From positions 1-24,749 of the IMG/VR virus record IMGVR_UViG_3300032323_002881: a stretch of DNA of 24,749 nt, one strand, 5' to 3'. Below, piece after piece: positions 1 to 19,994 of the stretch. Every line of letters begins with the position of its first letter. The first letter of the stretch is position 1. This DNA is from a virus. The position numbers were made by a program, and so were the translations under genes. The notes below the pieces were generated by a model. The model saw only the letters and a list, made by a program, of their open reading frames with translations. It ran no database searches and had not been told where the DNA came from.

Positions 1-801
1 AAGTTTAGAAAACTATTGTCCTGGTTAGGCGCAGATGATCTAACTGTGCGCCGACTGGTCATTGATGCAGTCAGATTACGAGAATTAGTTGCACCCGAAC
101 AACTCGAACCGGAACCTGAACAAGAGATTGCGTATGAAGCCAGAACATTGCCCGAACAAGCACGAAATGTAGTCGAACTAGCTAACTTTTACAGTATCGG
201 TGATTACAACAATGTACCTGCTGAATTACTTGCTGCAATAGAATATGTTAACCGCAGAGCAATAAATATCAATAAATATAATTTTTATTGGACTCCGGAA
301 GAAGCTTATAATTTGCACCGAAGAATCATTGTTCCTTTTTACTATCAAAAGGAACTTATAGGCTACACTGCACGTGGTATCGCAGATGGAATTAAGCCTA
401 AATATTATTCAAATCATCCGGCAGATTACGTTTTTAATCTTGATAATCAAAAATCAAACAGTAAATTTGTTATCGTATGTGAAGGTCCTTTTGATGCAAT
501 GAGCATAGATGGTGTAAGTATAAATGGTTCTGAAATTTCTGATCAACAAGCAGAACTAATTGATAGATTACAACGCGAAGTAATTGTTGTACCAGATGCT
601 GATCGCCCTGGTGAAAAAATCATTGATCGTGCCATTGAATTAGGGTGGACAGTAAGTTTTCCTATATGGCAGGAAACTTGTAAAGATATAAATGAAGCTG
701 TTATTAAATATGGTAAGTTATTTACGTTGTTTGCTATTTTAGCGTCTCGCGAGCATAATAAATTACGAATAAAAATTATGAAAAACAAACATAATAATTA
801 A
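1..801 (+). CDS. DNA primase, T4 gp61-like, 3' part (5' end outside window)
   Basis: This is the C-terminal part of a toprim primase, which makes RNA primers at the fork together with the DnaB-like helicase encoded downstream. The frame is open from base 1, so the TTG at 16 is not the true start; the zinc-finger end would lie upstream. Counting from that TTG, the toprim glutamate is in CEGPFDAM (about residues 155-162) and the metal-binding aspartates are in PDADRPG (about 193-199). GYTARGI before the toprim is usual for phage primases. The stop is followed one base later by a radical SAM gene, which separates primase from helicase; in many T4-like phages these two lie close together. Identification as a toprim primase is firm; gp61 type is inferred from context. 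Confidence 0.85.
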   Translation, partial: KFRKLLSWLGADDLTVRRLVIDAVRLRELVAPEQLEPEPEQEIAYEARTLPEQARNVVELANFYSIGDYNNVPAELLAAIEYVNRRAININKYNFYWTPEEAYNLHRRIIVPFYYQKELIGYTARGIADGIKPKYYSNHPADYVFNLDNQKSNSKFVIVCEGPFDAMSIDGVSINGSEISDQQAELIDRLQREVIVVPDADRPGEKIIDRAIELGWTVSFPIWQETCKDINEAVIKYGKLFTLFAILASREHNKLRIKIMKNKHNN

Positions 802-802
802 A

Positions 803-2338
803 ATGAAAACAGTAGATATAGTATTATGTGTTATTCCGGTTATTCATACGAGATCTGTTACCCTCGGCCCTGCATTATTAAAATCTTATTTAAGTGAAGC
901 AGGATTTTCATCAAAGATAATTGACTTTAATATAAGATTGTATGCTGAATTAACTGACGAAACAAGACAAAATGTAGAAAGTTTTTTACTATCAATGTCA
1001 GACGAACACGTTAGAGGCAAAACAGAATCTTTTGAAATGATAGAAAATTGGGCGAATGAAATATTAAGTCATAAACCTAAATTTATAGCTTGTAGCGTTT
1101 TTAGTTTTCAGTCGCAAAAAGCCACAAAAATTTTAGTTTCATATTTAAAACAAAAATCTCCAGATACAAAAATTTTATTAGGTGGATCAGGTTTAAGTAG
1201 TTCTGGAATAGCCAATGATGCAGATTTTGCAGACAATCTTCAAAAAAAAGGTATTATTGATTATTATATAAGAGGCGCAGGTGAAGAATCATTGGTACAA
1301 TTGCTTAAGGGTAACGTTTCACCCAGCGTTAATTCGTTTAGTGCAGTTACAATCACACACGATTTTTTAAAAAATATATCATATCCAAATTTTGATGATT
1401 ATGATTTCAACCAATTTGAACTTTCTTTGCCCATAATGAGTAGTCGCGGTTGTATAAGAAAATGTTCCTTTTGTGATGTACATCAAACAAGCAAATATCA
1501 TTTTAGAACTGGAGAGTCGGTATTTAATGAAATGAAATATCAAAGTCAAAAATATAAAATTTCGCATTTTCATTTTACAGATAGTTTAAACAACGGACAT
1601 CTTAAAGAATTCGTCAAACTTCTTACGTTATTAGATGAATACAACAGTTCAGCGGCAAATCCTATAAAATGGGGTAGCCAATACATAATCAGATCCGAAA
1701 AGCAATTGCCTGAAAATTATTGGCATCTCATGTCTAAATCTGCAGCTCAAATTTCAATAGGTATAGAAACAGGTAGCGATCGAGTTCGAGAACATATGAA
1801 CAAAAGATTCACCAATGCTGATATTGAATACACGTTTAAAAAATGTGAAGAATATAATATTCCCATTCATGTCATGATAATCGTAGGGTACCCAACTGAA
1901 ACTATTGAAGATTTTAACGAAACTTTAAGTTTTTTTTCAAAATATCAGCATCTAGCAAAAAAAAATATTATTCAAGGTGTTCAAATTGGCAACGGATTAA
2001 GCATTCTACCCAATACTCCACTAATGGATAACATACAAAAATTAAACATCGACATAGATGAAAAATTTATAGATAATTGGATAGCAAATGATAACCCTGA
2101 TTTAACATTTCAAGAAAGAATTTTGCGAGCAAAGATACTTAATGATCATGTTAAAAATCTTGGATATAATCTTCCTGATGCAACATCAATTGATAGACTA
2201 GAAAACGAAATACCATATTATGAAAAGAGAAATAAGATTAGAAAAATTATAAAAATTAAAGAGCAAAAAAAAATTGAATCTCAAATACAATCGCATTATA
2301 ATACTAACAATTTATTAAATGATAATGGAAAAATATAA
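803..2338 (+). CDS. B12-binding-type radical SAM protein
   Basis: A 511-residue radical SAM enzyme with a probable N-terminal cobalamin-binding-like Rossmann domain (about 1-165: TLGPALLKSYLSEAGF, ILLGGSG) followed by a radical SAM barrel. The 4Fe-4S motif CxxxCxxC is at Cys217, Cys221 and Cys224, and GIETGSDRVREHMNKRF further on is the usual SAM-barrel glycine/glutamate motif. The C-terminal tail (about 430-511) is Lys/Asn/Ile-rich. Relatives perform methylations or rearrangements, but the substrate cannot be read from sequence. The DxHxxG histidine motif of B12-ligating domains is not evident, so cobalamin use is uncertain. The gene sits between primase and helicase, overlaps the helicase start by 20 bases, and seems more AT-rich than its neighbours, consistent with an inserted accessory gene. 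Confidence 0.85.
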   Translation: MKTVDIVLCVIPVIHTRSVTLGPALLKSYLSEAGFSSKIIDFNIRLYAELTDETRQNVESFLLSMSDEHVRGKTESFEMIENWANEILSHKPKFIACSVFSFQSQKATKILVSYLKQKSPDTKILLGGSGLSSSGIANDADFADNLQKKGIIDYYIRGAGEESLVQLLKGNVSPSVNSFSAVTITHDFLKNISYPNFDDYDFNQFELSLPIMSSRGCIRKCSFCDVHQTSKYHFRTGESVFNEMKYQSQKYKISHFHFTDSLNNGHLKEFVKLLTLLDEYNSSAANPIKWGSQYIIRSEKQLPENYWHLMSKSAAQISIGIETGSDRVREHMNKRFTNADIEYTFKKCEEYNIPIHVMIIVGYPTETIEDFNETLSFFSKYQHLAKKNIIQGVQIGNGLSILPNTPLMDNIQKLNIDIDEKFIDNWIANDNPDLTFQERILRAKILNDHVKNLGYNLPDATSIDRLENEIPYYEKRNKIRKIIKIKEQKKIESQIQSHYNTNNLLNDNGKI

Positions 2339-3083
2339 CTCTGAATTACAAAAACTATTTTTAGAAATGATGCTGCAGGATGCAGAGACATATGTGCGTG
2401 TTCAAAATATTTATAATGCAGAAAACTTTGATCGTAGTTTACGTGAAGCTGCTCGTTTTATTAAAAAACACAGCGAAGATCATAAAACACTTCCAACAAG
2501 AGAACAAATTCAAGCGGCAACAGGAACAGAATTACGTGAAGTCCCTGAACTAAGAGAAGGTCATTACGACTGGTTTCTGACAGAATTTGAAAGTTTTAGT
2601 CGTAAACAAGAACTAGAGCGAGCTATTCTTCGAGCAGCAGACATGATTGAAAAAGGTGACTTTGATCCAGTGGAAAAATTGATCAAAGATGCAGTGCAGA
2701 TCAGTCTGACCAAAGACATGGGCACAGACTATTTTGAAGATCCTAGAGCTCGACTATTAAAAATTAAATCGAACAATGGACAAGTAAGCACAGGCTGGCC
2801 TACAATGGATCAACGACTGTTTGGCGGAATGAATCGCGGTGAACTTAATATTTTTGCTGGCGGCTCCGGTAGTGGTAAAAGTCTTTTTATGCAAAACATT
2901 GCTCTTAATTGGATCACTGCCGGGCTTAATGGTGTTTTCTTAACATTAGAACTAAGTGAAGAATTAACTGCTATGCGTATGGATGCAATGGCAGCAAATT
3001 GTAGCACTAAAGAAATTTTTAAAGATTTAGACACATTAGAAATGAAGATTAAATTTCTAGGTAAAAAATCTGGTAGGCTTTGA
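2319..3083 (+). CDS. Replicative DnaB-like helicase, N-terminal half (gp41-like), ends at in-frame TGA
   Basis: This is the first half of a T4 gp41/DnaB-type hexameric helicase, which unwinds duplex DNA ahead of the polymerase and works with the primase. It has a helical N-terminal domain (about 1-140), then STGWPTMDQRLFGGMNRGEL leading to the Walker A motif GGSGSGKS at about residues 181-188. The next elements, FLTLELSEE and the following helices, are normal. The frame then meets TGA at 3081-3083, just after KSGRL, where the family continues directly towards Walker B. The second half resumes in the same frame at 3093. A protein stopping here would lack Walker B and the DNA-contacting C-terminal motifs, so it should not be an active helicase alone. 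A start at 2325 (second ATG) is also possible. Confidence 0.85.
   Translation: MIMEKYNSELQKLFLEMMLQDAETYVRVQNIYNAENFDRSLREAARFIKKHSEDHKTLPTREQIQAATGTELREVPELREGHYDWFLTEFESFSRKQELERAILRAADMIEKGDFDPVEKLIKDAVQISLTKDMGTDYFEDPRARLLKIKSNNGQVSTGWPTMDQRLFGGMNRGELNIFAGGSGSGKSLFMQNIALNWITAGLNGVFLTLELSEELTAMRMDAMAANCSTKEIFKDLDTLEMKIKFLGKKSGRL
3081..3083 (+). other. In-frame TGA interrupting the helicase gene
   Basis: The two helicase halves are in the same frame. Reading this TGA as sense gives 477 residues, close to the 475 of T4 gp41. Nothing is missing or inserted: the sequence runs KSGRL-stop-IKYMPAQ straight across a conserved segment. This can be a point mutation, a sequencing or assembly error, or readthrough. 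Other genes here use TGA as a true stop (9302-9304, 13269-13271, 20590-20592, 23831-23833), so a reassigned code is unlikely. Confidence 0.9.
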
Positions 3084-3092
3084 ATTAAATAT

Positions 3093-3752
3093 ATGCCAGC
3101 ACAGAGCAATGTGAATCATATTCGTGCCTATCTAAAAGAACTAGAAATACAAACAGGCCAAAAAACAGATTTTATCATGGTAGACTATCTTGATCTGGTC
3201 ATGCCAGTAAGTGCCAAAGTCAGTCCCAGTGATCTGTTTGTCAAAGACAAATATGTGAGTGAAGAACTCAGAAACTTGGCAAGAGAATTTAACATACTGA
3301 TGATTACTGCGTCGCAGTTGAATCGTAGTGCTGTGGAAGAAATTGAATTTGATCATAGTCATATCTCGGGTGGTATCAGTAAAATTAACACAGCAGATAA
3401 TGTGTTTGGTATCTTTACTTCAAGAGCCATGCGTGAGCGTGGCAGATATCAAATACAGTTAATGAAAACTCGTAGTTCGAGTGGTGTAGGACAAAAAGTT
3501 GATCTTGAGTTCAATCTAGAAAGTCTACGTATTACAGATCCTGGCGAAGACGCTCAGAGTGAAAATGGTGGTCAAGGATTCCGCACCAGCAGTCAGATTA
3601 TGGATCAGATTAAGACTACTGCAACAACTAGTAGTCCTATGATTACAGCCAAACCCAAACCCGGATTTGATCTTGAAAAATCCGTGCAAGCAAATGTTGA
3701 CAGCACCAAGCTAAAACAGATGCTAGCCGGATTAAAATCTAAGGCAGAGTAA
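3093..3752 (+). CDS. Replicative DnaB-like helicase, C-terminal half
   Basis: This is the second half of the gp41-like helicase. It contains the Walker B strand DFIMVDYLDLV (Asp31 counted from this ATG), the motif H3 region MITASQLNRSAVE, and the H4 region LMKTRSSSGVGQKVDLEF that contacts DNA in DnaB-type motors. The last 60 residues are a Thr/Lys-rich linker and a short C-terminal helix. The ATG at 3093 has no convincing Shine-Dalgarno sequence, which argues that it is not a natural start and that the gene was, or is, one continuous reading frame with the upstream half. The stop overlaps the next gene's start (TAATG). Confidence 0.85.
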   Translation: MPAQSNVNHIRAYLKELEIQTGQKTDFIMVDYLDLVMPVSAKVSPSDLFVKDKYVSEELRNLAREFNILMITASQLNRSAVEEIEFDHSHISGGISKINTADNVFGIFTSRAMRERGRYQIQLMKTRSSSGVGQKVDLEFNLESLRITDPGEDAQSENGGQGFRTSSQIMDQIKTTATTSSPMITAKPKPGFDLEKSVQANVDSTKLKQMLAGLKSKAE

Positions 3753-4849
3753 TGGATCAATTTTGCGCCGATATACACAATAATTTAAGTATTAATTTAA
3801 CTAATCGAGGTGTTGAATTAGCTCCTTGTTGTTGGTATACCGAAGGCATTCCTTTAATAGATAACAATAGTTGGAATAACAGTAAATTAATTAAAATTAG
3901 AGAAGATAATAAGAACAATATATTAGATGAATCTGGTTGTAGGCAATGTATATACATGGAAAAAAATGGTTCCCACAGTCTACGCAAAGGAGTTAATGAA
4001 TATTATAATTCTCAATCAACAGATTTATCTGGTCCTCGTGGATTAGAAATTTCAGTTGACTTTACCTGTAACATTGCCTGTGTGTATTGTGGTCCACGAG
4101 TAAGCACACAATGGCGTCGTGAGTTGGGAATAGACAACAAAACATTTCCGATTCGACTCAATAAATTAGACATTATTAAAATATTAGATAAAATTGATTT
4201 AAGTAATCTAGATAACATACATTTTTACGGTGGGGATCCTTTTTTTACTCGTACACATGAAATAATATTAGATTATATTGATAAACGTGTGGGACTAAAA
4301 AAGTTATATATTTGGTATAATACCAATGGAACATTACGTGTTCCTGAGCGGGTATTTGAACTTTGGGATAAATGTAGATTAATCAAGGTTTATTTTAGTA
4401 TTGATGATATAGGAAAAAGATTTGAATATATCAGATATGGAGCAGTTTGGAATCATGTTGAAGATAATATGATGTGGTACCGATCAGAAGCTCCAGTGAA
4501 TGTTATGTTTGCATTACAACCAACACTAAGTTGCTTGAATTTATACTATCATCAAGAATTACATAACTGGAAAACACAAAATTTTAACACCAATAGATTG
4601 GGCGATTTCAACGATATTACACGACACAATGTTTTTAGCAAATTTGAGCTCGGTGCAATGCCAGACGAACTTTTAACAAAATGCTTAGAAAATAATAAAA
4701 ATGATCCCTGGGTAGTTGAATTTTCAAAATCATTTAAGCATAATCCAATAGAACTAGAAAAAACTAAATTGGAAATTAAACAACTTGATCAACGCAGAAA
4801 TCTAAATTTCACAGAGATATTTCCTGAGTTAGCTTCGTATTTCACATAA
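3752..4849 (+). CDS. Radical SAM protein with N-terminal Cys-rich (twitch/SPASM-like) region
   Basis: A 365-residue radical SAM enzyme. The canonical CxxxCxxC is at Cys106, Cys110 and Cys113 (DFTCNIACVYCG). Before it lie APCCWYTEG (Cys26/27) and SGCRQC (Cys63/66), the cysteine pairs expected of an auxiliary-cluster (twitch/SPASM) domain, here N-terminal. IHFYGGDPFF at about 156-165 is the GGE-like SAM-binding strand with Asp in place of Glu. Such enzymes usually modify peptides or act in natural-product or sugar pathways; the substrate is unknown. The gene overlaps the helicase stop by one base and is followed at 4861 by a late promoter. With the B12-type radical SAM gene it brackets the helicase, so this phage invests in at least two Fe-S enzymes. 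Confidence 0.85.
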   Translation: MDQFCADIHNNLSINLTNRGVELAPCCWYTEGIPLIDNNSWNNSKLIKIREDNKNNILDESGCRQCIYMEKNGSHSLRKGVNEYYNSQSTDLSGPRGLEISVDFTCNIACVYCGPRVSTQWRRELGIDNKTFPIRLNKLDIIKILDKIDLSNLDNIHFYGGDPFFTRTHEIILDYIDKRVGLKKLYIWYNTNGTLRVPERVFELWDKCRLIKVYFSIDDIGKRFEYIRYGAVWNHVEDNMMWYRSEAPVNVMFALQPTLSCLNLYYHQELHNWKTQNFNTNRLGDFNDITRHNVFSKFELGAMPDELLTKCLENNKNDPWVVEFSKSFKHNPIELEKTKLEIKQLDQRRNLNFTEIFPELASYFT

Positions 4850-4860
4850 AGCCTAAATCT

Positions 4861-4868
4861 TATAAATA
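4861..4868 (+). promoter_or_regulatory. T4-like late promoter octamer
   Basis: TATAAATA, an exact match to the T4 late consensus, lies 12 bases after the radical SAM stop and 20 bases before the TTG start at 4889. The predicted transcription start is near 4874, giving a short leader that contains the GGAG ribosome site. Confidence 0.75.
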
Positions 4869-4888: not shown

Positions 4889-5137
4889 TTGCAAAAGCGT
4901 ACTCGTAGTATCCTTGATGAACTTGCCCACATGCCCGTCACAAAAGACCGGGAAAATCTTGTGGAAAGTAGAGCCGGGCATGTAATACATGGTGCTATAA
5001 ATTTGATTAATTACATCAAAGAAAACTACAATGCTGAACAAGCAGCAGAACTAGAGCGTAGATTATTGAATAGCATACGTGCTCAGGATCCTGCTAAATT
5101 TGCTCGTGGTGTAAGGAGATTTAGGCGTGAAGATTAA
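4889..5137 (+). CDS. Small unknown protein, TTG start
   Basis: An 82-residue charged, mostly helical protein of unknown function, rich in Arg/Glu with a basic C-terminal end (GVRRFRRED). The TTG at 4889 is chosen because GGAG (4879-4882) sits six bases upstream, a late promoter lies immediately before, and no ATG occurs early in the frame. RSILDELAHMPVTKDRENLVESRAGHVI reads like a recurring small T4-like phage protein, but I cannot name it. It overlaps the next gene by 11 bases, so the two are probably translated together in late infection. Confidence 0.75.
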   Translation: MQKRTRSILDELAHMPVTKDRENLVESRAGHVIHGAINLINYIKENYNAEQAAELERRLLNSIRAQDPAKFARGVRRFRRED

Positions 5138-10489: not shown

Positions 10490-10888
10490 ATGGCTTATTC
10501 AGGTCAAGTTCTGGATCACTATGAGAATCCACGTAATGTAGGTAAATTAGATAAAAATGATCCGCGTGTTGGTACAGGATTAGTTGGAGCTCCTGCATGC
10601 GGGGATGTATTACAGTTACAAATACAAGTAGACGATGGAGTAATTACAGATGCGAAATTTAAGACATATGGTTGCGGTTCGGCGATCGCATCGTCGTCGC
10701 TGGTTACTACGTGGCTTAAAGGAAAAAGTCTTAATGAAGCGGCAGAAATTAAGAATACCCACATTGCGGAAGAACTCGCGTTACCTCCAGTTAAAATACA
10801 CTGTAGCATTTTAGCAGAAGATGCTATCAAAGCCGCACTATCAGATTATAGAATAAAAAATGATACAACTGACAGATCTAGCAGCTAA
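10490..10888 (+). CDS. iscU: IscU-like Fe-S cluster scaffold protein
   Basis: IscU builds 2Fe-2S and 4Fe-4S clusters on three cysteines using sulfur from IscS and hands them on. All hallmarks are present: Cys37 with Asp39 in GAPACGDV, Cys62 in TYGCGSAIASSS, and His104-Cys105 in LPPVKIHCSILAEDAI; the LPPVK motif (98-102) is the HscA chaperone-binding site. Length (132) matches cellular IscU (128), with a few extra C-terminal residues. No IscS or HscA gene lies in this window, so it would depend on the host for sulfur donation and chaperones. It has its own RBS (AGGAG) and possible promoter, and overlaps iscA by 29 bases. Most likely supports Fe-S enzymes such as the two radical SAM proteins (inference). 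Confidence 0.95.
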   Translation: MAYSGQVLDHYENPRNVGKLDKNDPRVGTGLVGAPACGDVLQLQIQVDDGVITDAKFKTYGCGSAIASSSLVTTWLKGKSLNEAAEIKNTHIAEELALPPVKIHCSILAEDAIKAALSDYRIKNDTTDRSSS

Positions 10889-11186
10889 GAAAGTTACACA
10901 ACAAATATCTAGACGCGGTAGCGGAATAGGCATCATGATTGGTGTTCGAACCACCGGATGTTCTGGATTGGCTTATAAACTAGAATATGTAGACACTCCC
11001 CCGGTTACCCGTGATTGGATAAAGTACGACAGTAATGGAGTCACAGTGTGGGTTAACGGTAAAGACCATCCATATATAAATGGTCTTACAATGGACTACA
11101 GACGTCATGGACTTAACGAAGGATTTGAATTTATTAACCCAAATGAACGAGATCGATGCGGTTGCGGCGAAAGTTTCCGAGTTTAA
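10860..11186 (+). CDS. iscA: IscA-like Fe-S cluster carrier
   Basis: A 108-residue A-type carrier, which takes clusters from IscU to target enzymes. The three ligands are in place: Cys34 in TTGCSGLAYKLEY and Cys100/Cys102 in CGCGESF at the C-terminus, as in E. coli IscA (35, 99, 101). NGLTMDYRRHGLNEGFEFINPNE is the usual IscA core. It lies within the 3' end of iscU and stops immediately before the nuclease ATG at 11187. The pair iscU-iscA is the compact part of the bacterial isc operon, without iscS, hscBA and fdx. Confidence 0.95.
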   Translation: MIQLTDLAAKKVTQQISRRGSGIGIMIGVRTTGCSGLAYKLEYVDTPPVTRDWIKYDSNGVTVWVNGKDHPYINGLTMDYRRHGLNEGFEFINPNERDRCGCGESFRV

Positions 11187-16477: not shown

Positions 16478-17604
16478 TGAGCGTATTTAACATCAATAAT
16501 AAGAATAAACACACTGAATCGTTAGCATTTTTAGACGTTTCTGGGGCACAACCAATCCAACGGTACGATACACTTAAGTATAGGCAGTTTGATAAACTAA
16601 CAGACAAACAATTAGGATTCTTCTGGCGACCAGAAGAAGTAGATGTACTTCGAGATGCAAAAGACTTCAAAGAACTAACAGAACATGAACAACATATTTT
16701 TACAAGTAATCTTAAGCGACAAATCCTTTTGGATAGTGTTCAAGGTCGTAGTCCCAATCTTGCTTTTCTTCCCATCGCTACTATTCCTGAGCTCGAAACT
16801 TGGATTCAAACTTGGGCGTTCAACGAAACTATTCATAGTCGCAGCTATACTCATATTATACGTAATGTTTATAGCGATCCTAGTGTTATATTTGATCAGC
16901 TCACGGATATAAAAGAGATTGTAGATTGTGCCAAGGACATTAGTCGTTATTATGATGATCTAATTGAAACAGTACAGTACTATAATCTACTTGGTTACGG
17001 CGTTCACACAGTTAATGGAAAAGAAATTGTCGTCAATCGCAGAGACCTAAAAAAGAAACTATGGTTGTGCCTTAACAGTGTTAACGCACTAGAAGGCATT
17101 AGATTCTATGTGAGCTTTGCTTGCAGTTGGGCATTTGCAGAGTTGAAAAAGATGGAAGGTAATGCTAAAATTATTAAGCTCATTGCACGAGACGAAAATG
17201 TACACCTTGGGTCAACACAGACCCTCCTGAAGCTGCTTCCAGCAGACGATACCGACTATACTTCTATCCGAGAAGAAACTCGTGCAGAATGTGAGCAAAT
17301 GTTTTTGGCAGCAGCAGCCCAAGAAAAAGCCTGGGCACATTATTTGTTCAAAGACGGATCAATGATTGGACTCAATGAACAGTTATTGAGTCAATATGTG
17401 GACTGGTTGACCTGCAAGCGTATGACAGCAGTAGGATTGAATTGCGGAATGAAACCAGGATCCAATCCATTACCTTGGACGGCCAAATGGATTGCTGGCG
17501 CAGAAGTACAAGTGGCTCCACAAGAAACAGAAATTTCAAGTTATGTGATTGGTGGCACAAAACAAGATGTAGATAATAATACTTTTAAAGGCTTTAGTTT
17601 GTAA
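16477..17604 (+). CDS. nrdB: Class Ia ribonucleotide reductase, small (beta) subunit
   Basis: NrdB houses the diiron centre and tyrosyl radical. All ligands are present: Asp86 ([11 protein letters not shown]), Glu117 and His120 with radical Tyr124 ([14 protein letters not shown]), Glu206 ([11 protein letters not shown]), Glu240 and His243 ([10 protein letters not shown]); these equal E. coli 84, 115, 118, 122, 204, 238 and 241. Length 375 against 376 in E. coli. The C-terminus NNTFKGFSL is the tail expected to dock on NrdA. The last codons AAAGGCTTTAGTTTGTAATG (17587-17606) also hold the start of the next gene and are repeated before two further genes downstream. Confidence 0.97.
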
Positions 17605-17606
17605 TG
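17587..17606 (+). repeat. nrdB tail / start junction, reference copy
   Basis: AAAGGCTTTAGTTTGTAATG encodes the true NrdB end KGFSL-stop and the overlapping ATG of SGNH copy 1. Related sequences recur at 18334-18353 and 19067-19083 before the other two SGNH genes. Confidence 0.9.
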
Positions 17607-18305
17607 GACTTTTTAACTTCGGGTTGTAGTTTTACAGGTCAAGAAAAATATAACAGTGGATGGCCTGTCTGGTTAAAAGAATTTGGTCAAGTAAAAAATC
17701 TTGGCGTGCCGGGAGCAGGAAATCAATACATTAGTGACAGTATTATACTTGAAGTATCGGCTGGTAAGAAACAATACGACTGCGTTTTGGTAATGTGGTC
17801 CGGATTACAAAGAATAGATTTTATAGTAGACCATTTAGCAGCAAATAAAGATCATCAGGCGCTTGATGATGTTAGTTATCTAGTTTATGGAGATTTAGTA
17901 CACAAACTAAAAGAATACAAGAGTATCATTATGTCAGGTAACGAATTGACACGAGGCATTAGAAGTATACTAGAAATTATAAAGTTGCAAAATTTTCTAA
18001 AAAATAAAAAAATCAAATACTATTTCATGTCCTACGTGAATTACTGGAATGATAAAGATAATGTAAAAAATTATAATTTTGGTGTTTTTAAATATGAAAA
18101 ATTAAAAGTGCTGTGTAATGAAATTGACTTTGATAATTTTATATTTGCGGAAAATAATGACTGTATTTTTGAAACATCAGAAAAATGCAACGGGTTACAC
18201 TCAGACGATTTTCATCCTAGTGCTGTAGGGTATGATTATTGGATGACTCAATACGTAATACCAAGATTAAAAAAAGACAAAGTTATAGAGGAGAAAATGT
18301 GTTAA
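17604..18305 (+). CDS. SGNH/GDSL-like hydrolase, tandem copy 1
   Basis: A 233-residue protein of the SGNH fold type (serine esterase or lipase). Block I is SGCSFTG with Ser9; PGAGNQY (36-42) gives the Gly/Asn of block II-III; VMWSGLQR (63-70) is a conserved strand; SDDFHPSAVGYDYW (200-213) has the Asp/His of block V with His204. Members deacylate sugars or lipids, or act in envelope modification; the phage substrate is unknown. It is closely related to copy 3 (shared SGCSF, PGAGNQYIS, YDCVLVMWSGLQR, KLQN, KYYFMSYVNYWN) and its last 15 residues are the same as in copy 3. It starts on the nrdB stop (TAATG). Catalytic activity is inferred from motifs. Confidence 0.75.
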   Translation: MDFLTSGCSFTGQEKYNSGWPVWLKEFGQVKNLGVPGAGNQYISDSIILEVSAGKKQYDCVLVMWSGLQRIDFIVDHLAANKDHQALDDVSYLVYGDLVHKLKEYKSIIMSGNELTRGIRSILEIIKLQNFLKNKKIKYYFMSYVNYWNDKDNVKNYNFGVFKYEKLKVLCNEIDFDNFIFAENNDCIFETSEKCNGLHSDDFHPSAVGYDYWMTQYVIPRLKKDKVIEEKMC

Positions 18306-18333
18306 CTGTATATTCAAAAAATAATTGCCCGTT
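18259..18333 (+). repeat. 75-bp perfect direct repeat, first copy (holds a cut-off grx start)
   Basis: Identical to 19712-19786, period 1453. It covers the last codons of the SGNH gene (PRLKKDKVIEEKMC) and the first codons of glutaredoxin. At this first copy glutaredoxin stops abruptly after CP, and a nrdB-tail copy follows at once. Confidence 0.95.
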
Positions 18334-18376
18334 AAAGGCTTCAGTCTGTAATGAAGATTTTGATAGCAGGGTGTAG
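18299..18376 (+). pseudogene. Relic of glutaredoxin 5' end
   Basis: The frame starts with GTG at 18299 as in the real grx at 19752: MLTVYSKNNCP is the same. It then leaves homology inside the third codon of the CPFC active site (position 18334) and runs on through the nrdB-tail copy into a stop at 18374-18376, giving a 25-residue peptide. The ribosome site GAGGAG is intact, so a short peptide could be made, but no redox site remains. Confidence 0.8.
18334..18353 (+). repeat. nrdB tail relic, copy 2
   Basis: AAAGGCTTCAGTCTGTAATG: it encodes KGFSL-stop with overlapping ATG exactly like the true nrdB end, but with silent changes TTT to TTC and TTG to CTG. It joins directly to the grx relic on its left. 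Confidence 0.85.
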
Positions 18377-19061
18377 CTTTTGCATGGCGTTAGAGCCAAT
18401 ACTTTCACAAAAGATACCCGGTTGCAAAATTACTAATCTAAGTCATGCCGCTGCCGGGAATAAATTTATAGCCGATTCGGTAATTGCGGCAACAGCTAGA
18501 GAAAAATTTGATTTAATATATGTTAGTTGGTCTACGCTATCGAGACTTGATGTAGTAGTTGACGATCATAGCTATTTTCACAACTGGATGGCTAAAGGAT
18601 CTATATATGATGCAAAATATCTTTTTACTGGTGGTATAGGTAGTTGGGATCATTTGAAACATCAGTACGCCGACATGATTTTTGTGGGAATACATAAATT
18701 TCTTGATCAACAACAACTACACTATCTGAGTTTTCTAGAAATGCTAAAAATACAAAACTATCTGGCTAGTTTGGGAACACCGCATTATTTTAGTATCATA
18801 ATGAATCAATTTAATGAGACTTTAATAGAACCAGCTCTTAGAGAAAGTAGCGAAGTCAGTGCCAGTCATTTTCCAGAAAATAGTTTCTTAATTGAAAAAT
18901 TAAATATACAAAATTGGATTTTAGACGAGGGCATGGGTGAATTTGAGGCTTGCTACAATAAAAATCTTATATCCGATGACAGATTCCATCCAACAACCCA
19001 AGGATATGAATATTGGATGGAATTGTTATGTCAAAGATTAGAAAAAGATAACATTATATAA
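18351..19061 (+). CDS. SGNH/GDSL-like hydrolase, tandem copy 2 (divergent)
   Basis: A 236-residue paralogue. IAGCSFCM gives Ser9, HAAAGNKFI (32-40) the Gly-Asn block, YVSWSTLSRLD (57-67) the middle strand, and SDDRFHPTTQGYEYW (208-222) the Asp-His block with His213. Conserved positions are the same as in copies 1 and 3, but the rest is far more divergent and its C-terminus (RLEKDNII) differs. It starts with the same TAATG overlap, now on a relic nrdB tail, and it seems a separate lineage brought into the locus. Substrate unknown. Confidence 0.72.
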   Translation: MKILIAGCSFCMALEPILSQKIPGCKITNLSHAAAGNKFIADSVIAATAREKFDLIYVSWSTLSRLDVVVDDHSYFHNWMAKGSIYDAKYLFTGGIGSWDHLKHQYADMIFVGIHKFLDQQQLHYLSFLEMLKIQNYLASLGTPHYFSIIMNQFNETLIEPALRESSEVSASHFPENSFLIEKLNIQNWILDEGMGEFEACYNKNLISDDRFHPTTQGYEYWMELLCQRLEKDNII

Positions 19062-19066
19062 AACAT

Positions 19067-19083
19067 GGATTTAGTTTGTAATG
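19067..19083 (+). repeat. nrdB tail relic, copy 3
   Basis: GGATTTAGTTTGTAATG matches the true nrdB end GGCTTTAGTTTGTAATG at 16 of 17 positions and encodes GFSL-stop plus the overlapping ATG of SGNH copy 3. It stands in the gap after copy 2, where no nrdB exists. Confidence 0.8.
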
Positions 19084-19758
19084 AAATTTCTCACTTCGGG
19101 TTGTAGTTTTTCTGGTTGGCATTCGTGGTTGGAACCGTATGGAGAAACTAAAAATTTAGGGTTGGCCGGTGCCGGAAACCAATATATTTCCGAAAGTGTA
19201 ATTATAGAGCAAACGCTCAATGACATTGAATACGATTGTGTTCTTGTAATGTGGTCGGGACTACAAAGGCAAGATTATATAGTTGATCCGTTAGTAGATA
19301 TTAATAACCTTCCGGTATACAATGATGTGCGTTATTTGCCTGCCGGAGATTTGATAGTAGAAAAAACATTCAAAGAAATAACAAAAAAAGGTAATGAATG
19401 TACCAGGGCAATAAAAAGTTTGTTAGAAATGATAAAATTACAAAATTATCTTCAAAATAAAAAACAAAAATACTATTTTATGTCTTATGTAAATTACTGG
19501 AATAAAGAAGATTATTTGATTAATAGAAATTTTGGAATATACAGATATGATATCTTAGCTAAATTAGCTAGTCAATTAGATTTTTCAAGATTTATTTTTG
19601 GGCAAGATAAAAAATGTTTGTATGAAGTATGCTTAGAAAAGCAACTACTCATTGAGGATAATTTTCATCCCAATTACCAAGGACTTGGTTTCTGGATGAC
19701 GGAATATGTTTTACCAAGATTAAAAAAAGACAAAGTTATAGAGGAGAAAATGTGTTAA
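19081..19758 (+). CDS. SGNH/GDSL-like hydrolase, tandem copy 3
   Basis: A 225-residue close paralogue of copy 1. SGCSFSG (Ser9), GAGNQYIS (30-37), YDCVLVMWSGLQRQD (51-65), and EDNFHPNYQGLGFW (192-205, His196) keep all SGNH blocks. The C-terminal PRLKKDKVIEEKMC and its DNA are identical to copy 1, consistent with recent duplication or gene conversion of the 3' end, while the N-terminal half differs by substitutions and length changes. The stop overlaps the glutaredoxin GTG, which is probably the ancestral SGNH-grx junction. Confidence 0.75.
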   Translation: MKFLTSGCSFSGWHSWLEPYGETKNLGLAGAGNQYISESVIIEQTLNDIEYDCVLVMWSGLQRQDYIVDPLVDINNLPVYNDVRYLPAGDLIVEKTFKEITKKGNECTRAIKSLLEMIKLQNYLQNKKQKYYFMSYVNYWNKEDYLINRNFGIYRYDILAKLASQLDFSRFIFGQDKKCLYEVCLEKQLLIEDNFHPNYQGLGFWMTEYVLPRLKKDKVIEEKMC

Positions 19759-19786
19759 CTGTATATTCAAAAAATAATTGCCCGTT
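19712..19786 (+). repeat. 75-bp perfect direct repeat, second copy (real grx start)
   Basis: Identical to 18259-18333. Here the glutaredoxin frame continues past the repeat into the intact gene. Confidence 0.95.
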
Positions 19787-19994
19787 TTGCGACAGGGCAA
19801 AACAGCTACTAGAAAGCAAAGGAGTAACCTATACCGAAGTCAATATCGAGCTTGATCCAGAGTCAAGACAAATGTTACTAGATAAAGGTCTTAGAAGTGT
19901 ACCACAAATATTTCGCGGTTATGAATTAATTGAAGGTGGCTTCAAAGGTATCGCAGGAAAACCAGATAGTTTTTTTAAACAACTTCAAGGATAA
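19752..19994 (+). CDS. grx: Glutaredoxin
   Basis: An 80-residue dithiol glutaredoxin. CPFC at residues 10-13 is the active site, SVPQIF carries the cis-proline (residue 50), and GG in the IEGGFKG segment is the glutathione-binding turn. It re-reduces the C-terminal cysteines of NrdA, so its place by nrdAB makes functional sense. It starts with GTG inside the ATGTGTTAA end of SGNH copy 3; GAGGAG (19741-19746) is the ribosome site. A cut-off copy of its 5' end lies upstream at 18299. Confidence 0.95.
   Translation: MLTVYSKNNCPFCDRAKQLLESKGVTYTEVNIELDPESRQMLLDKGLRSVPQIFRGYELIEGGFKGIAGKPDSFFKQLQG

Follow-up and report, generated by a model that had tools for sequence, protein, structure and literature searches.

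Aquatic T4-like phages rich in iron-sulfur (Fe-S) genes have been described, in which IscU or an A-type carrier, glutaredoxin and several radical S-adenosylmethionine (rSAM) genes occur in one phage, with up to 12 rSAM genes in a single 183-kb genome (Nishimura et al. 2017, PMC5332604). In pelagimyophages, rSAM cassettes differ between close phages within a region containing many glycosyltransferases, and they were linked to a change of the host O-chain (PMC7029224). The cultured giant phage vB_AerVM_332-Vera, placed in Chimallinviridae, carries eight rSAM genes inside its core gene cluster (PMC12390700). Aquatic phages rich in rSAM and IscU genes are thus already known. The locus considered here lies at the left end of the virus record IMGVR_UViG_3300032323_002881 (24,749 bases, the whole stretch analysed, hereafter the window), where a B12-binding-type rSAM gene precedes a DnaB-like helicase gene and a twitch-type rSAM gene follows it.

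The primase/helicase junction and the helicase/structural-gene junction are very probably cargo slots in an otherwise conserved block. The best overall explanation, to which a probability of about 0.6 is given, is that the rSAM genes are working accessory enzymes, exchanged independently of each other and including a role on glycans.

Gene content on either side of the helicase

All features of the locus are on the plus strand. The upstream slot is bordered by a TOPRIM primase gene whose 5' end is missing (1-801; Toprim_2 6.3e-9, phrog_47 DNA primase 3.7e-33) and is occupied by the B12-binding-type rSAM gene, of the long type (803-2338, 511 residues; Pfam, NCBIfam and alignment). The DnaB-like helicase (2319-3752) is followed by the N-terminal-twitch (N_Twi_rSAM) gene (3752-4849, 365 residues; NF033640, alignment and model), which fills the downstream slot as far as a gene for an 82-residue structural protein (4889-5137; phrog_11854 virion structural protein 4.6e-18). 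Coordinates and domain matches confirm the arrangement given in an earlier note made from the sequence, as does base composition for its remark that both genes are AT-rich (29.5% and 31.1% G+C for the B12 and twitch genes, 36.8% for the whole window). That note also had both genes overlapping the replication genes by a few bases. This is correct at both helicase borders, by 20 bases for the B12 gene (14 from the second ATG) and by one for the twitch gene (TAATG), and incorrect at the primase, which lies one base away from the B12 gene. The twitch gene ends 39 bases before the 82-residue gene.

Both junctions were followed in a helicase-seeded set of loci (L016-L095), selected by helicase and not by rSAM. 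From at least 548 relatives of the helicase the best 80 were taken; dereplication at 95% left 76 loci and changed the counts little. The downstream junction, with both borders seen in 65 of the 80 loci, is empty in 17 and occupied in 48, and an rSAM gene is present in 30. Upstream, 73 loci were visible, of which 51 are empty and 22 occupied, three of them by a twitch rSAM gene. In these counts L023 was entered as occupied without rSAM, though a profile found a twitch stretch there, and L085 and L089 were entered as rSAM by sequence motif and clustering. Of the 65 visible downstream slots, 8 (L016, L021, L028, L034, L051, L054, L062, L067) hold two facing twitch genes, the first on the plus and the second on the minus strand; the minus-strand members look like a separate subgroup. 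Another frequent minus-strand occupant (L066:3521-4984 and 18 relatives, 298-721 residues) has a tail-fibre-type look by eye, and the L066 protein has no Pfam match.

The evidence for exchange comes from comparing slot content with its flanks. Helicase and twitch identities correlate at r 0.14 across 28 loci with a plus-strand twitch gene directly behind the helicase. For the 23 loci with comparable flanks, the correlation is 0.81 between helicase and primase, 0.66 between helicase and 82-residue gene and 0.88 between primase and 82-residue gene, against 0.26 between helicase and twitch gene. Between phages whose helicases are about 97% identical, the twitch proteins in the slot are often just 24-35% identical. 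L054 and L055, for example, share 97% of the helicase, 92% of the primase and 97% of the 82-residue protein, and 25% of the twitch protein; the values for L007 and L025 are 96% for the helicase and 33% for the twitch protein. In some pairs (L047, L050) the 82-residue protein is also down to 67-78%, and in some close pairs the rSAM gene is retained (L054/L062 92%, L083/L086 100%). At the DNA level, homology is lost close to the helicase stop and mostly returns about 25-33 bases before the 82-residue gene; between L035 and L054 it ends already about 200 bases before the helicase stop. One pair provides an empty site, the slot of L061 being empty (46 bases) and that of L062 containing two rSAM genes in 2259 bases, next to helicase genes 95% identical in DNA. 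Each rSAM gene would be an accessory resident of one slot, acquired independently of the other, and slot contents would be replaced between close relatives at sharp borders; for the downstream slot such replacement is shown. It probably proceeds by homologous recombination within the conserved genes on either side. The tight packing of the genes suggests that the cargo is transcribed together with the replication genes.

The two kinds of gene also occur separately. An rSAM gene in both junctions is seen in none of the 58 helicase-seeded loci where both are visible. A first search with the B12 protein returned the near-identical contig only, and a two-sequence profile then retrieved 24 further viral loci at 26-37% identity, a set that leaves out the near-identical contig and is not dereplicated. 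The B12-rSAM gene stands directly upstream of the helicase in nine of these 24 loci (seven with the primase visible). The fetched loci of all nine contain no twitch match, and three of the 24 have one at all. Among the 80 helicase-seeded loci, L057 (one contig with L121) is the sole case of a B12-rSAM gene before the helicase, and its contig begins inside that gene. The window's twitch protein has relatives in viral contigs at 61-63% identity. In L003, L005, L006 and L007, which carry twitch homologues 60-63% identical to it, only 5-13 bases separate primase and helicase. The primase/helicase place thus recurs for B12-rSAM genes, and the bracket of two rSAM genes was seen only in the window phage and the near-identical contig. 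The earlier note had left a shared pathway and independent insertion side by side and had proposed co-occurrence in other phages as the check. At the helicase the genes occur independently of each other, the outcome that the note had named as refuting its pairing; this supports independent insertion and leaves a shared pathway unsupported. B12-type and twitch-type genes do stand side by side or close together in a few other settings (L117, L122, and the bacterial-titled contigs L131-L133 and L135), so that both can belong to one larger rSAM repertoire.

The motif TATAAATA, which has the sequence of the T4-type late promoter core, lies where the downstream slot ends on the side away from the helicase (4861-4868, plus strand). 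On the plus strand of the window it starts at 4861, 6780, 7774, 8211 and 24366, mostly near starts of structural-type genes. A late promoter was rejected as a general feature of the slot borders: TATAAATA occurs within 90 bases upstream of the 82-residue gene in just 7 of 70 loci and upstream of the helicase in none of 83.

The two enzymes and their possible substrates

The B12-type protein matches Pfam Radical_SAM (7.1e-19, 69 bits, cut-off 29.5). Its B12-binding domain reaches 30.2 bits (4.5e-7), just below the Pfam cut-off of 32.1, and that of the homologue in L057 reaches 36.6 bits. The motif C217xxxC221xxC224 is kept in 12 of 12 aligned homologues. The 25 NCBIfam matches listed, to named B12-rSAM families (PhpK, the C-methyltransferases of ribosomally synthesised and post-translationally modified peptides (RiPPs), HpnJ, BchE and others), are all far under their cut-offs, the best with 93.7 of 600 bits. 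By family, the enzyme is probably a methylcobalamin-dependent methyltransferase. A tblastn search of cultured phages gave six matches, all weak. The closest relatives found, at 39% identity, are in contigs titled Bdellovibrionia metagenome-assembled genomes (MAGs), one of them adjoining a second B12-rSAM gene and a twitch gene.

The twitch protein matches Pfam Radical_SAM (1.8e-9) and, over residues 2-364 of 365, NF033640 N_Twi_rSAM (184.5 bits, cut-off 170), a family matched by 31 of 31 aligned slot proteins. In an alignment of 31 rows the rSAM cysteines C106, C110 and C113 are invariant; C63 and C66 are nearly so, and C26-C27 are present in most untruncated rows. Cysteines 26/27 and 63/66 are probably ligands of an auxiliary cluster. 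The structure model is confident (predicted local distance difference test, pLDDT, 92.7), and its matches to anSME, BlsE, viperin-like enzymes and the pyruvate formate-lyase-activating enzyme tie at Z of about 12; the substrate therefore cannot be read from the structure. A tblastn search of cultured phages found nothing that matches the twitch protein of the window; two other slot twitch proteins have distant relatives in Vibrio phages.

The ratio of nonsynonymous to synonymous substitution rates (dN/dS) is 0.06-0.14 in seven of eight computable rSAM pairs, a further four pairs being saturated. The slot rSAM genes are under purifying selection. As judged from the sequences, the rSAM enzymes are functional, because their catalytic cysteines are conserved and their relatives are under this selection.

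Among the substrates proposed in the earlier note (nucleotides, glycans or a peptide), glycans have the most circumstantial support. A partner gene of about 140-150 codons lies directly behind 15 of the 24 B12 homologues, both next to the helicase and in other places (e.g. L110:7299-7745). It is conserved behind B12-rSAM genes of the short type and travels with them to different genome places, and the contig of L027 begins with it just before the helicase. Its dN/dS was 0.25 and 0.31. No sequence match was found for the partner protein in PDB or PHROGs, and none in cultured phages. Its model (pLDDT 82.1) matches vCBM60 (2xfd) at Z 8.7 over 101 residues (root-mean-square deviation 3.1) and 2xhh at Z 8.5, the next row being at 5.5 or less; the Foldseek E-value is weak (2.2e-3). 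A carbohydrate-binding fold like that of CBM60 and CBM36 is predicted. In addition, a 213-kb contig contains an rSAM cluster whose neighbours are a glycosyltransferase 8, a cytidylyltransferase with a mannose-P-isomerase domain, an epimerase and a weak GDSL match; a methyltransferase is present in one slot; and in KVP40 a distant relative stands near a gene of the glycosyltransferase family PF00534. Tentatively, at somewhat less than even odds, the twitch and B12 enzymes may modify sugars, either in a surface polysaccharide or in its precursors, so that swapping them would alter the surface of the host cell or virion and would, for example, shut out competing phages. It is more doubtful that this amounts to phage serotype switching, with interchangeable rSAM alleles in slots of the replication block, sometimes accompanied by a CBM-fold partner and fed by phage Fe-S assembly. 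If it did, a slot swap would lead to a different radical-modified surface glycan and to a different competitor or host profile.

Several observations weigh against independently exchanged, working enzymes with a glycan role. A weak residual correlation between twitch gene and flanks persists (0.26-0.41), the spread of twitch identities may come partly from several old subfamilies, and the swap comparison covered the downstream slot only. In the close pair L025/L028 dN/dS reaches 0.5, a value based on very few changes, and the pair formed with the window's own twitch gene is among the saturated ones. The CBM-fold partner is absent from the window, whose B12 gene is of the long type. The glycan-type neighbours were taken from selected regions for which there was no matched control, and the glycan substrate is proposed from association and from the partner's predicted fold. 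Besides sugar-related enzymes, RiPP maturases and viperin are among the structures closest to the twitch enzyme. Of the non-twitch slot proteins, 18 of 19 have no Pfam match at 1e-3, and many were read as SGNH hydrolase, sulfotransferase or glycosyltransferase by eye only. Ten slot proteins, six repeated from these 19, gave no usable Pfam match at E up to 1, and ten proteins (three partner, seven slot) had no PHROGs match.

An action on peptides, RiPP-like or otherwise protein-modifying, with the precursor elsewhere in the phage or host, is unlikely. In Foldseek, the twitch model is matched best by the sactipeptide maturase CteB (5wgg), followed by SkfB, and the top PDB sequence match of the twitch family is TigE (8vpo); for the B12 gene, a RiPP C-methyltransferase family ranks second among the NCBIfam matches, far under its cut-off (89.5 of 281.85 bits). 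The twitch members, on the other side, weakly match many rSAM families. The earlier note's failure to see a small precursor gene beside the rSAM genes is borne out locally: there is no intergenic room from 801 to 4849, and 803-4849 contains no separate precursor gene because the gene spacing leaves no place for one. No short conserved open reading frame (ORF) was noticed accompanying the swapped slot contents, in a listing that left out ORFs under 70-100 residues.

It is quite improbable that the genes act on nucleotides or phage DNA, by a viperin-like chain terminator or by base hypermodification. The twitch model has viperin structures among its hits, 11 of 31 members weakly match a viperin model, and a location beside primase and helicase would suit a replication block. 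All 31 aligned members match N_Twi_rSAM, however, and it is the replication genes around the slot that stay constant, not what the slot holds; relatives also stand elsewhere, between iscU and iscA or behind genes that by eye are SbcC-like or tail-fibre-type.

A passenger status of the rSAM genes, brought in by chance or by a mobile element and doing nothing for the phage, is very improbable. The high turnover of slot content and the AT-richness of the genes would fit it. So would the last 55-70 bases of the helicase gene that are repeated within the downstream slots of L055 and L080, which might be the trace of a single-crossover insertion. Such flanking direct repeats are limited to 2 of 53 occupied downstream slots, are present in none of 23 upstream slots and do not occur in the window, and they were rejected as a general mark of insertion. 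The low dN/dS and conserved catalytic cysteines also argue against passengers, and no transposase or homing endonuclease match was found among the 19 slot proteins scanned.

The least probable alternative, one of the two offered in the earlier note, is that the two genes form one functional pair in one pathway: they are co-resident in the window and their kinds neighbour each other in the six other contigs named above, but as a general rule such a pair, or a single operon function, is largely refuted already by the 58 loci without double occupancy, by the nine helicase-adjacent B12 genes without a twitch gene and by the 60-63% identical twitch homologues next to an empty upstream junction.

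The surrounding phage and its iron-sulfur genes

The phage to which the window belongs is large and of the jumbo type, its group is rich in rSAM enzymes, and the window covers part of its genome. The closest cultured helicases to that of the related locus L003 belong to jumbo phages including PA5oct and Atu_ph07 (48-52% identity), the window's NrdB has matches in large phages such as XaC1, and contigs related to the window are up to 354 kb long. PF04055 matches were found in 41 of the 80 helicase-seeded contigs (8/10, 23/39 and 10/31 in the subsets), the richest contigs having 11 in 354 kb and 12 in 300 kb. L135, a 349-kb contig titled as a bacterial MAG, has at least seven ORFs with an rSAM motif in 13 kb around its B12-rSAM gene; this may belong either to a phage or to an rSAM island of a bacterium.

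The window encodes the Fe-S cluster scaffold IscU (10490-10888; TIGR01999, 214.9 bits, cut-off 192.4), an IscA-type Fe-S carrier (10860-11186; TIGR00049, 92.2 bits, cut-off 58.8) whose gene overlaps iscU by about 30 bases, and a glutaredoxin (19752-19994; PF00462, 5.9e-19), all on the plus strand. IscU was found in 10 and the IscA-type carrier in 11 of 16 contigs tested. In L098 and L103, rSAM genes sit, with acetyltransferase or other ORFs, between the counterparts of iscU and iscA, and the iscU/iscA junction is therefore a further insertion place. The three phage proteins probably help to supply the [4Fe-4S] clusters of the rSAM enzymes. Between NrdB and glutaredoxin (17604-19758), three tandem related ORFs of 225-236 residues have an SGNH-hydrolase-like start by eye, and two have weak DUF6071 matches.

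The window's helicase gene is split by an in-frame TGA (3081-3083), overlooked in the earlier note, into an N-terminal part (2319-3083; phrog_19 7.2e-38) and a C-terminal part in the unchanged frame (3093-3752; phrog_19 1.6e-28, DnaB_C 2.1e-10). The 99.95% identical contig L002, from another record (one contig with L001, L009 and L105), has a sense codon at this site and an intact helicase. By this comparison the TGA is a point variant or an assembly error, because L002 reads through with a sense codon and TGA terminates other genes; the same two facts rule out an alternative genetic code or recoding. Given the sense codon in L002, the helicase was treated as one gene.

Comparison with described systems

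Slot swapping at the helicase and the pairing of a B12-rSAM gene with a CBM-fold partner were found without a description in the literature searched, which says nothing on papers beyond it. At the level of families, NF033640 N_Twi_rSAM is common to the window's twitch protein and all 31 aligned slot proteins, and its family records give no function. The B12-type protein shares domain order and core motif with the B12-binding rSAM methyltransferases (PhpK, RiPP C-methyltransferases, HpnJ/BchE-type), whereas its scores are far below their cut-offs. The CBM60/CBM36 modules are resembled by the predicted fold of the partner of B12 homologues, the window itself being without this partner.

At the level of phages, the window resembles those of Nishimura et al. 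(2017, PMC5332604) in having IscU, an IscA-type carrier and glutaredoxin together with two rSAM genes. It differs in that the nearest cultured helicases of its group are found in the jumbo phages PA5oct and Atu_ph07, and helicase slots, swapping and a B12-rSAM/CBM-fold partner are not described in the parts of that paper considered here. The pelagimyophage cassettes lie in a host-recognition region (PMC7029224), whereas the rSAM genes of the window lie in the primase-helicase block. Those of 332-Vera, likened here by description only, stand in a cluster of structural genes, unlike those of the window (PMC12390700). Compared with these systems, the replacement of twitch rSAM genes at a fixed site with nearly unchanged flanks turns a loose list of accessory genes into a testable system, the recurrent pair of a B12-rSAM gene and a predicted carbohydrate-binding fold provides a concrete substrate hypothesis, and the presence of IscU and IscA genes in these phages suggests how the rSAM enzymes may be supplied with their cofactor.

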